Source of the DNA: Roseomonas nitratireducens
GTDB lineage: Bacteria; Pseudomonadota; Alphaproteobacteria; Acetobacterales; Acetobacteraceae
Length of the DNA stretch: 64,000 nucleotides
Assembly: GCF_017813355.1 (NCBI RefSeq)
Contig: NZ_JAGIYZ010000007.1
Span: 124,001 to 188,000 of the forward strand
Reading direction: 5' to 3'
Made by a program: the position numbers and the translations under genes. Below the pieces are notes generated by a model. That model searched no databases. It saw nothing but the letters and a program-made list of their open reading frames with translations, and was not told the DNA's origin. Below, one piece after another: positions 56,657 to 63,359 of the stretch (the first letter of the stretch is position 1; each line of letters begins with the position of its first letter).

Positions 56657-59188
56657 TCAGTCCCGCGGCCCGGGTGCCAGCACCTCGCGCTTGCCGACAT
56701 GGTTGGCCGGTCCCACCACGCCTTCCTTCTCCATCTGCTCGATCAGCTTGGCCGCGCGGTTGTAGCCGATGTTGAGATGGCGCTGGACGAAGGAGGTGCT
56801 GGCCTTGCCTTCGCGCGTCACCAGCGCGACCGCCTGGTCGTACAGCGAGGCCTCGCCATCGGTGTTGCCGCCGAGCATGCCGGGGATCGCGCCGCCGTCG
56901 TCATCCTCGGCCTCGGTCACTTCCTCGATGTACTGAGGCTCGCCCTGGCTGCGCAGGAATTCGACCACGCGCTCGACTTCCGTGTCGCTCACGAAGGGGC
57001 CGTGCACGCGGGCGAGCCGCCCGCCGCCCGGCATGTGCAGCATGTCGCCCTGGCCGAGCAGCTGCTCCGCGCCCTGCTCGCCGAGGATGGTGCGGCTGTC
57101 GATCTTGGAGGTGACCTGGAAGGAGATGCGGGTCGGGAAGTTCGCCTTGATCGTGCCGGTGATGACATCGACCGACGGCCGCTGCGTCGCCATGATCACG
57201 TGAATGCCCGCCGCGCGCGCCATCTGCGCGAGCCGCTGTACCGCGGCCTCGATCTCCTTGCCGGCGACGATCATCAGGTCCGCCATCTCGTCGATGACCA
57301 CGACGATCATGGGCAGCGGCTCGAGCGCGAGCGGCTGCTCCTCGAAGGTCGGCTTGCCGGTCTCGGGGTCGAAGCCGGTCTGGACCTTGCGCGTCAGCAC
57401 TTCCCCGCGCGCGCGGGCGGCGGCCACCTTTTCGTTGTAGCCGCCGATGTTGCGCACGCCGAGCTGCGACATGGCGCGGTAGCGGCGCTCCATCTCCCGC
57501 ACCGTCCACTTCAGCGCGCCGATCGCCTTGGGCGGTTCCGTCACCACGGGGGCGAGCAGATGCGGGATGCGGTCATAGACCGACAGTTCCAGCATCTTCG
57601 GGTCGATCATGATGAAGCGGCACTCGTCGGGGCCGAAGCGGTAGAGCAGGGACAGGATCATGGTGTTGATCCCGACCGACTTGCCCGACCCCGTGGTGCC
57701 CGCGATCAGCAGATGCGGCATGCGGGCGAGGTCGGCGATCACCGGCGCGCCGCCGATGTCCTTGCCGAGCGCGAGCGGCAGACGCCCCTGGTTCCGGTGC
57801 CAGGATTCGTCGACGAACATCTCGCTCAGATAGACCGTCTCCCGCTTCGCGTTCGGCATCTCGATGCCGATCACGTTGCGGCCCGGCACGGTCGCGATGC
57901 GCACCGCGATCACCGACATGGACCGCGCGATGTCGTCGGCCAGGCCGATGACGCGCGATGACTTGGTCCCCGGCGCCGGTTCGAGTTCGTACAACGTCAC
58001 CACCGGGCCGGGCCGGATCTCCGCGATCCGCCCGCGCACGCCGTAGTCCTCGAGCACGCTTTCGAGCAGCCGCGCATTGGCCTGCAGCGATTCCTCCGAA
58101 GGCCGCCCGGTGCGGCGCGCCGGCGCTTCCGTCAGCAGGTCGAGCGGCGGCAGCCGCCACTGCCCCTCGCCGAGGTCGAGCGCGCGCTGTTCCGCCACGC
58201 GGCGCGGCCGGTCCTGCGCCCGGTCCTGCACCTTGCTGCGCGGGACGAGGCGCGGCTTGGCCTCGGGCTCGGTGCCGCGGCGGACGTCGCCATCCTCCCC
58301 CGGCAGGGGCGCGGGCGGGGCGGCGGGGCTGGGCGGCACGGCGGAGGCGGCTTCCTCGGCGGCGCGCAGCATGGCGCCGAGCGGCACGTCGGTCGGCTCG
58401 CGCCGGAAGCGCGCCGCGGCTTCCCGGCCCATGCGGCTGAAGGGGGAGGCGAGGCGCGCGAAAAGTCCCGGGCGCGGCGGGCGGGGCGCTTCCGGCGCGT
58501 CCGGCCGGCGCAGCGCGGCCGCGCCGCTGCGCGCGGCCCCCACCGCGACCTGACCCGCGCCGACGGCCGCGCGGCCGGCGCCGCGCCATTCGCCCACCGT
58601 CAGCCCGCAGGCGATGAAGGCCGACCCGACGGCCGCGACCATCACGAAGGCATACCCCGCCATGGCGCCGGCCGGGCCGAACAGGCCGCCCAGCCCATCG
58701 ACGACGAAGCCGGAGACGAGCGGGCCCGCGACGCCGCCGGCCCCCGCCGCGACCGGCAGGTCGGGCGGCACCGGCATCAGCGACAGCGCCGCGGCGCCCA
58801 GCGGCAGCGCCGCCAGCAGCCCGACCAGCCTGGCCGCGAAGGTGCCGAGGCCGCGATGCGTCGCCAGCCGGAACGCCCAGGCGAGCAGCGCGAGGGAAGG
58901 CAGCACGGCGGCGAAGCCGACGGATTGCAGCAGGACGTCCGAGACGATCGCCCCCACCGGCCCCGCCAGGTTCCGCGTCGGCCCGGCGCTTGCCGTGTTC
59001 AGCGAGGGATCGGCCGGGTCATGGCTGCCGAGCGCGATGAGCAGCCCCACCGCCGCCAGCGCGACGAGCACGCCGGCCAGTTCCATCAGCCGCCGCCGCA
59101 GCACCGCGCGCACGGCGGCCGAGGCGAAGCGGCCCGGCGCGGCTGCGTCGGAAGCGCGGGACTCGTTGGTCAGGGCAGCACGGGGCAT
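56657..59188 (-). CDS. ftsK: DNA translocase FtsK
   Basis: An 843-residue septal DNA pump coupling chromosome segregation to division. Four hydrophobic spans lie in about the first 190 residues, followed by an Arg/Pro/Ala linker (about 200-360). The motor domain has FTSK Walker [21 protein letters not shown], Walker [16 protein letters not shown], and [29 protein letters not shown]. The C-terminal gamma winged helix is [26 protein letters not shown], which reads KOPS sites. The start is taken as the ATG at 59188; a GTG at 59233 would add 15 residues. A 7-bp-stem hairpin lies at 59260-59279 upstream. Confidence 0.95.
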
Positions 59189-59309
59189 GTCGGGCGTCGA
59201 GTTCAGGTTGCGGATGAACCATACCGCAAACACCCTTGTCGGCGCAGCGTTTACCTGCGCCGGGCGCCCCTTCGCCCGGACGCTGTGGTCAGCCGGTCAC
59301 GCCCCGGCC

Positions 59310-60134
59310 CTATTCGCCGGCCAGCCGCTCGATCAGGGCGCGCAGCATCCCCGCGCCTTCGGACAGCGCCTCGATCGCCACCGGCCGCCCTTCGCCGCCG
59401 CCGGTCGCGGCCGGCCAGGCGGTGCGGTCGCGCCCGAGCTCGGCGGCGGACAGCCGGCCGTCGCCGTCGAAATCCAGGCTTTCGACCAGCAGCCGCGCCG
59501 CCGCGGCGGCCGCGACGCCGCCGAGGCCGGCCGCGACGGCCAGCCCTTCCGGCGGGCTGTCCTGCAGCGCCGCGAGCGCCCAGGCGGCGCCGCGCAGCAG
59601 TCGGGCGATCTCGGCCACGCCGAGCAGCCGGTCGCCCGAGACATCCCCTTCCGCGACCAGCGCGGCGATGCAGGCCTCGGTCCCCGCGCCCTGGCAGGCG
59701 CCTTCCAGCCGCTCGAGCGTGGCGAGGAAGGCGAGCCCTTCCCCGTGCAGCAGCAGCAGCGAGGCCGGCGGCGTGGCGCAGCGCGTCCAGCGCAGCAATT
59801 CGGTCTCGCCGGGCAGCCTGTCGTCGCGCAGCTTGGCGTCGGGCTCGGCGGTTTCCAGCGCGTCCCCGGCGGCGCGCAGCATGATGCGCGGCGCTTCCGC
59901 CCCGCCGCCCGTGCCGATCGTCCAGCCTTCCTGCACGCGCAGGGTGCGGAAGCGGAGCAGCCGGGCCGCGCCTTCGGCCGGCAGCCGCAGCGCGCCGCGG
60001 GCCGAGACCTGAAGCACCGCCTCCGGCGCGGCGCAGGCGCCCCGCACCCAGGCGCCGCGCAGCGGCTCGGGCACGCCCTGCGCGTGCGCGGGAAGGGCGG
60101 CGAGCGCCAGAAGAAGGATCAGGAGACGCATCAT
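59310..60134 (-). CDS. Exported EF-hand protein
   Basis: An unrecognised 274-residue protein with a signal peptide (MMRLLILLLALAALPAHAQ, cleavage near residue 19). The N-terminal part (20-120) has a beta-rich pattern with Cys34 and Cys119. Two EF-hand loops follow: D164-V-S166-G-D168 to E175, and a canonical one at 221-232 (DFDGDGRLSAAE). Cys147 and Cys155 lie between. Calcium binding in the periplasm is probable. It overlaps the upstream five-repeat protein gene by ATGA, so the two are made together and may interact. ATG 60134 was chosen for that overlap. Confidence 0.65.
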   Translation of the reverse strand: MMRLLILLLALAALPAHAQGVPEPLRGAWVRGACAAPEAVLQVSARGALRLPAEGAARLLRFRTLRVQEGWTIGTGGGAEAPRIMLRAAGDALETAEPDAKLRDDRLPGETELLRWTRCATPPASLLLLHGEGLAFLATLERLEGACQGAGTEACIAALVAEGDVSGDRLLGVAEIARLLRGAAWALAALQDSPPEGLAVAAGLGGVAAAAAARLLVESLDFDGDGRLSAAELGRDRTAWPAATGGGEGRPVAIEALSEGAGMLRALIERLAGE

Positions 60135-61603
60135 CGCAGCACCACCTCGACGCCGGCGCACAGATCCGCCGCCGGCAGGCGGAGTTCCCGCCCGTCGCGG
60201 AACACGGCGGTCAGGTCGGCGCGGCATTCCGTGCCCTCGGGCGGGGCGAAGTCGAGCGTCTCCCCCACCCCCAGCACGGTCCGGCCGAGCCGGTCCGCGC
60301 CGCGCGGCGCGCCGGGCGGGTCGGCGTAGAGCTCGGCGACCGGCACCTCTGCCGCGTTGCGCAGGCGCACGCTGCCGGGGCGCGGGCCGGTCTCCTGCGC
60401 CTCGCCCTCATCCAGCCGGTCGGCCAGCGTCCAGCCGGGGCGCAGCACGATGACCGAGACCTCGCAGAGGTTGATCGCGGCGCGTTCCTCGGCCGCGCGG
60501 CGCTCCTCGAAGACGATGCGCAGGTCGGCCTCGCATTCGCGCAGCCGGGCGCCGATCTCGATGCGCCGGCCGCGCGGCAGCACTTCCTCGCCCAGCCGGT
60601 CGGGGCCCCAATCCTCCTCGGCGCTGCCGGACAGGTAGACCTCCTGGATCGTCGCGCCGTGGCGGTTGACGAGGGTGACGCGGCGTTCCGGCGGGCGGGG
60701 CGCGCCCGATCCGTCGAAGGCGAGTTCGCGCACGGCGCAGAGGTCGACGCCGCGCTTCACCTCCTCCGCATCGTCCTCGTAGACCGCGCGGATGTCCCAC
60801 AGGCAGGCGGCGCCGCGCAGCCGCAGCGTCACGCTCGCGCCCTGTTCCAGCATGTCGTTGCCCAGCCGGTCAGGTCCCCAGGCCCCGGGGGCGCGGGTCG
60901 AGGCATAGAGCTCCCGGATCGTCCGGTCGGCGGCGTTCGTCACGCGCGCCTCCCGCCGCGGCGCGTTGGGGTCGCCGAAGGTCACGCGCGGCTCGCGGCA
61001 GAGGTTGAGCGCTTCCCGCACCTCCTCCTCCCCGTCCTCGAACACCGCGGTCACGTCGAAGATGCAGTCCCGCGTACGGCCCATGCGGACGCGGAATTCC
61101 CGCCCCGCCGGCACGACGTTCTCGCCAAGCCGGTCGGGGCCGCGGCCGGCGGCGCCGGGCGGCGCGGCGAAGACCTGCAGCAGGATCATGTCCGTCTCGT
61201 TGCGGATGGTCGCTTCCCGCAGCGGGATGGACGGGTCGCCGAACTGCACGCGGCGGGCTTCGCAGATGTTCTGGCGGCGCCGTTCCTCCGTGCCGTCCTG
61301 GAAGATGGCGCGGAATTCCAGCGTGCAGGTGGCCGAGGTGACGCGGGCGCGGAAATTTCCCCGGTCCGGCACGGTGTCCGCGCCCAGCAGGTCGGGGCCG
61401 AAGCTCTCCGCGCCGGGCGGGGCGGCATAGACCTCCCGCAGCGTCTGGCCGGACTGGTTGACGATGGTGACCTCGCGTTCCCGTGGCGCGGGCTGCTGCT
61501 GCGGGGCGGGCTGTGCGGCGCGCGGCGGCGCGGCCTGCTGCGCGATGGCGGCGAGGGGTGCCAGGGCGAGGCCGGCGGCCATCGCCAGGTACGACAGGCG
61601 CAT
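60131..61603 (-). CDS. Secreted protein with five cysteine-paired tandem repeats
   Basis: A 490-residue protein with a signal peptide (cleavage near AIAQ, residue 22), a Gln/Pro/Ala linker, and five repeats of about 80-88 residues at roughly 44-128, 129-217, 218-305, 308-390 and 411-490. Each repeat begins with a strand of the form VTIVNxSGxTLREVYA, has a central GPDRLG (DLLG in the first), and holds two cysteines 21-23 residues apart (93/114, 180/202, 267/289, 357/380, 460/482) flanking a phrase like DxxAVFEDGEE. The pairs probably form disulfides inside each repeat. No named family is recognised. The fold is probably an all-beta sandwich and the role unknown; binding to envelope or metal is possible. 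Confidence 0.7.
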   Translation of the reverse strand: MRLSYLAMAAGLALAPLAAIAQQAAPPRAAQPAPQQQPAPREREVTIVNQSGQTLREVYAAPPGAESFGPDLLGADTVPDRGNFRARVTSATCTLEFRAIFQDGTEERRRQNICEARRVQFGDPSIPLREATIRNETDMILLQVFAAPPGAAGRGPDRLGENVVPAGREFRVRMGRTRDCIFDVTAVFEDGEEEVREALNLCREPRVTFGDPNAPRREARVTNAADRTIRELYASTRAPGAWGPDRLGNDMLEQGASVTLRLRGAACLWDIRAVYEDDAEEVKRGVDLCAVRELAFDGSGAPRPPERRVTLVNRHGATIQEVYLSGSAEEDWGPDRLGEEVLPRGRRIEIGARLRECEADLRIVFEERRAAEERAAINLCEVSVIVLRPGWTLADRLDEGEAQETGPRPGSVRLRNAAEVPVAELYADPPGAPRGADRLGRTVLGVGETLDFAPPEGTECRADLTAVFRDGRELRLPAADLCAGVEVVLR

Positions 61604-61716: not shown

Positions 61717-62148
61717 TCAGGGCGCGGGCAGCACCACGATGCTGACGGTGCGGGAGGGCGGCTCGGCGGCGCGGACGCGGGGGCTGAACTGGGCGCTGCG
61801 CGCTTCCGCCCGCAGCCGGTCCGGGGCGATGCCGCGCGCGGCGAGCGCGTTGGCGACCGCGCGCGCGCGCTCGGCGGCGAGGCGGATGGACGTCGTCGCC
61901 CCGCCTTCCTGCCCCGCATGGCCGAGCAGGCAGGCGACGCGGGCCGGGTCGGCGCGCAGCGCTTCCTCCGCCGCGGCCAGCGGCGTGCGCGCTGCGTCGC
62001 CCAGCGCCGCGGAACCGCGCGCGAAGGGAATGGCGAAGACATCCTCCTCCAGCTGCTCGGCGCCCACGCAGGCGAAGCCGGGCGCCTGCGCCGCCGCGCC
62101 GGGCGCGAGGGCGAGCGGCAGGAGGAGCAGGGGGAGAAGGCGCCTCAT
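61717..62148 (-). CDS. OmpA-like C-terminal domain protein, exported
   Basis: A 143-residue protein with a signal peptide (cleavage near AAAQ, residue 21) followed by an OmpA-like domain: VFAIPFARGSAALGDAARTPLAAAEEAL, a compact middle, then RLAAERARAVANALAARGIAPDRLRAEARS, the family hallmark, and SRTVSIVVLPAP at the end. The R/D residues that bind peptidoglycan diaminopimelate in OmpA are only partly visible. It overlaps the stop of the JmjC oxygenase gene by ATGA and is probably translated with it. Confidence 0.75.
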   Translation of the reverse strand: MRRLLPLLLLPLALAPGAAAQAPGFACVGAEQLEEDVFAIPFARGSAALGDAARTPLAAAEEALRADPARVACLLGHAGQEGGATTSIRLAAERARAVANALAARGIAPDRLRAEARSAQFSPRVRAAEPPSRTVSIVVLPAP

Positions 62149-63359
62149 GCCGCGGCGAGCAGCCCGGCCGCCGCGAGGCGCTCGATCAGCGCGCCGGCGT
62201 CGAGCGCGGGCCAGGCCGCGCGCAGCTCCGCCTCGGCGACCGCCGGGCGGGCGAGGATCCAGGCCGCGGCCTCGATCTCCGGCATCGACATCGCGATCAC
62301 CCCGGCCTCGGTCTTCAGCCCGAATTCGTTGCCGCGGCGCACCGGCCGGGCCGTGCCCACCACACGGAAGCGCGCGCCGCCCGCGGGCGCGGCGGCCGCT
62401 GCCGGCGCACCGGCGCGCGCGGCCTGCAGGTCGTAGCCGCCGCGCTCGAAGCGATGGTCGCGCACGAAGGCCGACAGCACCTCGAGCACCTTGGGATCCC
62501 GCGCGAGGTCGGACAGCCGTGCGCCGATCGCGGCCAGGCGCTGCGCCAGCGCCTCCCGCGCCGCGGGGCTGCCGTCCTGCCGCGGCAGGGGCTGGCGGAA
62601 CAGCGCGTCGTACAGCGCGCGCTCGGTCAGCACGTTGAGCGCATCCATGCCGAGCGGCGCGTGCACGCCATAGGCGATGTGGACGGAATCCGGCGCCTCG
62701 GCCAGCGCGTCGTGGTACCAGCCGCGCGGCAGGTACAGCAGGTCGCCCTTGCGGACGACGACCTTCTCCCGCAGCCGGCCCTTCGCCTCGTCGTGCTGCG
62801 CCTGGGTCTGGCCGCGGAAGATGGGATGGGCGATCGGCCATTCCGCGCGGCCTTCCCAGATGTTCCAGGCCTTCTCGCCTTCCACCTGCACCGCCCAGAC
62901 ATCGTGGGTGTCGTAGTGGGAATGGAAGGCCTTGTGCGACTGGAAGGAGATGTAGACGTTGGCCTGCGCCTTGCCGAGGCCGGCATCCTCCAGCGCGCGG
63001 GACACGGCGGCGAGCCCCGGCGTCAGGCTGTCCACGTCGTTCATCACGACGGACGCGCCGCGCGCCACCCATTCCTGCACCTTCGCCGCGACCGGCTGCA
63101 GCACCGGGGCGCCGTCGCGCGACGTGGCCTTGGCGCTGTACTGGACCGGCGGCACGGGAACGCTGTCCATCACGACGCGCAGGCTTTTCTCCGACCAGAC
63201 ATGCGTCATGCCCAGCAGCGCGTCGATGCCGGCCCAGTCGAGCACGGCGGCGAACTTCGCCGCCCCGCCCGGCACGTGCAGGGGCTGGCGGTCGAAGTAT
63301 TCGGCGAAGAAGCGCTCCGGCGTCACCGGGGCGAGAAGGTCCTGCAACGTCATCTTCAT
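62145..63359 (-). CDS. JmjC-domain cupin oxygenase (ribosomal oxygenase-like)
   Basis: A 404-residue Fe(II)/2-oxoglutarate oxygenase-like protein of the JmjC cupin_4 group, to which the ribosomal protein hydroxylase RoxA (YcfD) belongs. The iron site is HSHYDTHDVWAVQVEGEKAW (H-x-D with the first Histidine near residue 147) and the distal His in GDLLYLPRGWYHDALAE. The N-terminal PERFFAEYFDRQPLHVPGG and the C-terminal winged-helix-like domain fit the group. A ribosomal protein substrate (uL16 in E. coli) is inferred only from family. It overlaps the OmpA-like gene downstream by 4 bp, an unusual pairing. Confidence 0.85.
   Translation of the reverse strand: MKMTLQDLLAPVTPERFFAEYFDRQPLHVPGGAAKFAAVLDWAGIDALLGMTHVWSEKSLRVVMDSVPVPPVQYSAKATSRDGAPVLQPVAAKVQEWVARGASVVMNDVDSLTPGLAAVSRALEDAGLGKAQANVYISFQSHKAFHSHYDTHDVWAVQVEGEKAWNIWEGRAEWPIAHPIFRGQTQAQHDEAKGRLREKVVVRKGDLLYLPRGWYHDALAEAPDSVHIAYGVHAPLGMDALNVLTERALYDALFRQPLPRQDGSPAAREALAQRLAAIGARLSDLARDPKVLEVLSAFVRDHRFERGGYDLQAARAGAPAAAAAPAGGARFRVVGTARPVRRGNEFGLKTEAGVIAMSMPEIEAAAWILARPAVAEAELRAAWPALDAGALIERLAAAGLLAAA

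Follow-up and report, generated by a model that had tools for sequence, protein, structure and literature searches.

The window, by which we mean the whole 64,000-nucleotide stretch of Roseomonas nitratireducens DNA that was analysed, carries two overlapping genes on the minus strand. The upstream gene (60131..61603) encodes P1, a predicted exported five-repeat protein of 490 aa, delimited by its ORF and translation and by orthologues. The downstream gene (59310..60134) encodes P2, a predicted exported EF-hand protein of 274 aa, delimited by its ORF, homologues and a structural model. A preliminary description of this DNA had noted that the P1 stop overlaps the P2 start, and the sequence bears this out: the two share the 4 nt ATGA (60131..60134, minus strand), an overlap kept in other genera. 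The same description had proposed a signal peptide on P1 and export of P2, and export-type signals are indeed recognizable by eye at both N-termini, with AHA/QG in P2 and AIA/QQ in P1 (putative signal peptide MRLSYLAMAAGLALAPLAAIAQ, 61538..61603, minus strand; the P1 start matches that of aligned orthologues).

Third-position G+C exceeds 0.92 in both genes, and comparison with three Neoroseomonas-type relatives gave pN/pS values of about 0.35 for P1 and about 0.50 for P2. Both are therefore real, constrained genes, under purifying selection relative to those relatives. P1 orthologues share 75–80% identity in Neoroseomonas, 46% in an Acetobacteraceae MAG and 34% in Elioraea.

Upstream of P1 on the minus strand lies a gene for an OmpA-like (PF00691) exported protein (61717..62148), assigned by Pfam and neighbourhood comparison, which itself overlaps a JmjC_2 gene (62145–63359) by 4 nt at 62145–62148. 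These two genes are common to most Neoroseomonas loci and to two genomes without P2. An FtsK/SpoIIIE DNA translocase gene with 4TM, alpha and gamma domains (56657–59233) lies 76 nt downstream of P2. Beyond close relatives, none of the three (FtsK, OmpA-like, JmjC_2) is generally retained as a neighbour of the pair, and we rejected a link to FtsK because this neighbour is not kept. A consensus scan for promoters and terminators found none.

The P1 repeats and their wider family

Repeat-versus-repeat BLASTP, with E values of 1e-22 to 6e-4, far beyond chance, and a repeat profile divided P1 into five units, all on the minus strand: repeat 1 (residues 41–127, 61223..61483), repeat 2 (residues 128–215, 60959..61222), repeat 3 (residues 216–304, 60692..60958), repeat 4 with an RPGWTLADRL linker of low pLDDT (residues 305–407, 60383..60691) and the C-terminal repeat 5 (residues 408–490, 60134..60382), the last also supported by repeat scoring. 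Units are 83–90 residues long except the fourth, which reaches 103 because of a linker of about 20 residues. The ten cysteines form five pairs (93/114, 180/202, 267/289, 357/380 and 460/482), spaced 21, 22, 22, 23 and 22 residues apart in repeats 1–5, and all ten are kept in the aligned orthologues from Neoroseomonas, the Acetobacteraceae MAG and Elioraea. Translation and BLASTP between repeats thus agree with the architecture first described, of five tandem repeats with two cysteines 21–23 residues apart. The shared GPDRLG core named there also stands, being GPDRLG in three repeats and varying to GPDLLG in repeat 1 and GADRLG in repeat 5.

What had been overlooked is that the repeat belongs to a paralogous family, with 13 more copies in its own genome and members across Pseudomonadota. 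A repeat profile search counted 18 copies in R. nitratireducens, five in P1 and 13 elsewhere; the latter sit in exported proteins of one or two domains, one of them (L033) with a lipoprotein-like signal and another fused to Trypsin_2. The domain was present in 77 of 150 Acetobacteraceae genomes, and wider sampling found it in 33 of 289 genomes of the class and in 39 of 299 of the phylum. Outside Acetobacteraceae it occurs mostly as a single-domain exported protein of about 105–150 residues. In three genomes one or two copies precede an HtrA-like Trypsin_2 protease domain: L037:3474-4580 in the window's own genome, L070 in Acetobacteraceae and L128 in another alphaproteobacterial family.

The preliminary description had placed the architecture in no named family known to it, and for the repeat, profile searches of Pfam, NCBIfam, PHROGs, PADLOC and PDB sequences likewise returned no convincing match. 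No member tested matched a Pfam Ig or FnIII model, phage records held no match, and a plasmid search did not find P1, its one match to a single-domain relative being in Sulfitobacter. Literature searches on the repeat motif and on EF-hand/Acetobacteraceae combinations found nothing relevant. The profile evidence thus gives good support to what appears to be a new domain family, paralogous and large, with members across Pseudomonadota.

The conserved family motif reads N...Y...WGxDxLG...C.D...C. Across 236 copies, the Asn after strand 1 is kept in 98% and the W/G/D/L/G of the core in 67–95%, while the second cysteine is present in all 236 (100%) and the first in 232 (98%). The four copies lacking the first cysteine (L033, L036, L038 and L132) are exactly the four that have a cysteine just before strand 1, and this all-or-none swap fits an apparent relocation of the disulfide partner. 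In the AlphaFold2 model of P1, Cys 56 and Cys 77 (mature model numbering) flank one beta-hairpin, equidistant from its turn, with strands 57–64 and 69–75 between them; this geometry is consistent with a disulfide joining the two.

The same model shows P1 as five small beta-sandwiches in a row, each of about six strands (mean pLDDT 87, pTM 0.51). The domain folds are modelled with confidence, whereas their arrangement relative to one another is uncertain at this pTM. The top PDB fold match was the Vps13 VAB domain (7u8t; E 1.3e-7, probability 1.00), with low TM-scores of 0.17/0.14; Ig, FnIII and other tandem proteins followed, their E values ranging from 1e-6 to 1e-3. Tandem proteins of viruses scored similarly to VAB or better. 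According to PMC8978259, VAB modules lie end to end and an invariant Asn closes strand 1 of each. P1 resembles this arrangement in its tandem beta-sandwich modules with an Asn ending strand 1, Asn being the last residue of that strand in the model of repeat 1. However, VAB is eukaryotic and cytosolic and has nine strands per module against about six in the P1 repeat, and the available text of that source reports no conserved disulfide for it. No VAB or SHR-BD Pfam model matched the P1 repeat up to E 5, and the PDB sequence matches of the repeat profile include no VAB chain. Because the strand number differs and sequence matches are lacking, we treat the modelled resemblance to VAB as a lead rather than as membership. 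P1 is also like Ig-like and FnIII-like tandem proteins in being exported and apparently rod-like, with small beta-sandwiches in a row, but it differs from them in having no Pfam Ig or FnIII match and a conserved motif of its own.

P2 and its genomic pairing with P1

In its AlphaFold2 model (pLDDT 88), P2 consists of about nine strands followed by helices. The strands make up an N-terminal beta-barrel-like domain (residues 19–119, 59778..60080, minus strand) with a conserved GxW and a cysteine at each end. Its approximately nine predicted strands and a GxW near the start recall lipocalin/calycin barrels, but Pfam gave no lipocalin match, and Foldseek matches to Tp0751 (best E 0.045) and to fatty-acid-binding proteins were weak.

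The two EF-hand loops reported in the preliminary description, DVSGDRLLGVAE (residues 164–175, 59610..59645) and DFDGDGRLSAAE (residues 221–232, 59439..59474), both on the minus strand, were recovered by Pfam, model and alignment. Each loop sits between two helices in the model, and the ligands at positions 1, 3, 5 and 12 persist in 24/27 P2 homologues in the first loop and in 25/27 in the second; in the window's own loop 1, Arg replaces Gly at position 6. Pfam EF-hand_7 matched P2 at E 9e-4 and 20 bits, below the 30-bit gathering cut-off, and each of the ten P2 orthologues hits at least one EF-hand model, the lowest E value being 6e-6. Fold matches of the helical part to calcineurin B, NCS-1 and a Streptomyces calcium-binding protein were weak. 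P2 resembles EF-hand proteins (PF13499, PF13405) in having two canonical loops flanked by helices, but 57 residues separate the starts of its loops, a wider spacing than a standard EF pair shows, and it is exported with a beta-barrel domain in front. The loops and their modelled setting suggest that P2 binds calcium. Four cysteines are invariant in all 27 homologues.

A strong P2 homologue (E < 1e-60) was found in 21 of 150 Acetobacteraceae genomes, from about 13 genera, and a multi-repeat P1 homologue lies directly upstream in all 21, two of them at contig edges. The 4-nt overlap is present in 17 of the 19 survey loci in which P1 could be read and in 9/9 Neoroseomonas/Elioraea loci, two sets that share one genome. 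P2-linked P1 proteins have three to five repeats; one locus gives six matches, a single repeat being split in two. The pair and its overlap are thus well supported as conserved. A check of conservation had been suggested for both Acetobacteraceae and Rhodobacterales: many Acetobacteraceae genera do keep the genes together and coupled, but the 289 class genomes gave no support for Rhodobacterales, and in that sample neither the full pair nor a full-length P2 relative was seen outside Acetobacteraceae. What mainly recurs there is the EF-hand helical domain of P2 behind other N-termini. Such proteins, from other alphaproteobacterial families, include L158–L162, whose N-termini differ; that of L160 resembles MORN and Sel1 repeats by eye. 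Two genomes encode a distant P2-like protein, and the one inspected (L123) has no repeat gene adjacent to it.

Five genomes carry a multi-repeat P1 but no recognizable P2; in one of these the C-terminal repeat of P1 is well preserved. We scored each P1 repeat against profiles of the five repeat types of the window. All 20 of the P2-linked P1 proteins that were scored end in a type 5 repeat, and in 18 of them this is the best-scoring one. Of the five P2-less proteins, two have lost this repeat and two score weakly for it, leaving one in which it is the best (Fisher p 0.005 for a best-scoring C-terminal repeat with versus without P2, computed on sequences that share ancestry and are not independent). 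The comparison is suggestive of an association between the presence of P2 and a conserved repeat 5, which is therefore the first place to seek a P2 contact.

A possible P1–P2 complex and its alternatives

We propose, tentatively and at a little under an even chance, that P1 is a rod-like scaffold or adaptor on which P2, a calcium-binding partner, docks in a calcium-sensitive manner. P1 would be exported as five small beta-sandwich modules, each pinned by a disulfide, and P2 with a small calycin-like barrel at its N-terminus and an EF-hand helical domain after it. Translational coupling would supply the two in a fixed ratio, and their joint site of action would most likely be the periplasm or the cell surface, where P2 would dock on the C-terminal repeat of P1 in response to calcium. 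A calcium-dependent complex of the two is plausible, to the same tentative degree.

It is also quite possible, although we would not expect it, that P1 and P2 are co-expressed and exported without binding each other, the overlap reflecting only a compact operon; P1 would then act unaided, as would its single-domain relatives, and P2 would be a separate calcium-stabilized periplasmic protein. Proteins related to the P1 domain mostly consist of one or two such domains, exported on their own and with no P2; five genomes have P1 but lack P2, and at the loci examined P2-like and EF-hand-domain relatives have no repeat domain nearby. Against such independence stands the strict adjacency of the two genes, 21/21 over about 13 genera, while other neighbours are not generally kept beyond close relatives. 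The fusions in L037, L070 and L128, in which repeat copies stand ahead of Trypsin_2, raise the idea that the domain serves to inhibit or to target exported trypsin-like proteases, P1 being its multivalent free version. This we consider unlikely, as the protease occurs on only a small minority of the domain proteins and none adjoins P1–P2.

The fold search offers another reading, in which the P1 modules are peptide-binding beta-sandwiches like VAB and recruit partners through short proline-containing strands. The rank of VAB as top match, the end-to-end modules and the Asn ending strand 1, described for VAB in PMC8978259, speak for it; yet the TM-scores are low, generic Ig, FnIII and other tandem proteins follow in the ranking, viral ones score at least as well, the strand numbers disagree and Pfam is silent, and we regard it as improbable. 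A fuller version, in which the repeat would be the bacterial equivalent of the VAB peptide-recruitment module, and P1–P2 a calcium-gated adaptor, periplasmic or surface-located, built on tandem copies of it, is a long shot.

The domain family and the gene pair are new, though their general kind is familiar. The family reaches up to 18 copies per genome and is unnamed in the libraries searched. Concrete predictions follow both from the disulfide that seems to have moved and from the way P2 goes with the C-terminal repeat. With its conserved EF-hand partner, the repeat domain offers a system in which a calcium-responsive pair of exported bacterial proteins could be tested directly.
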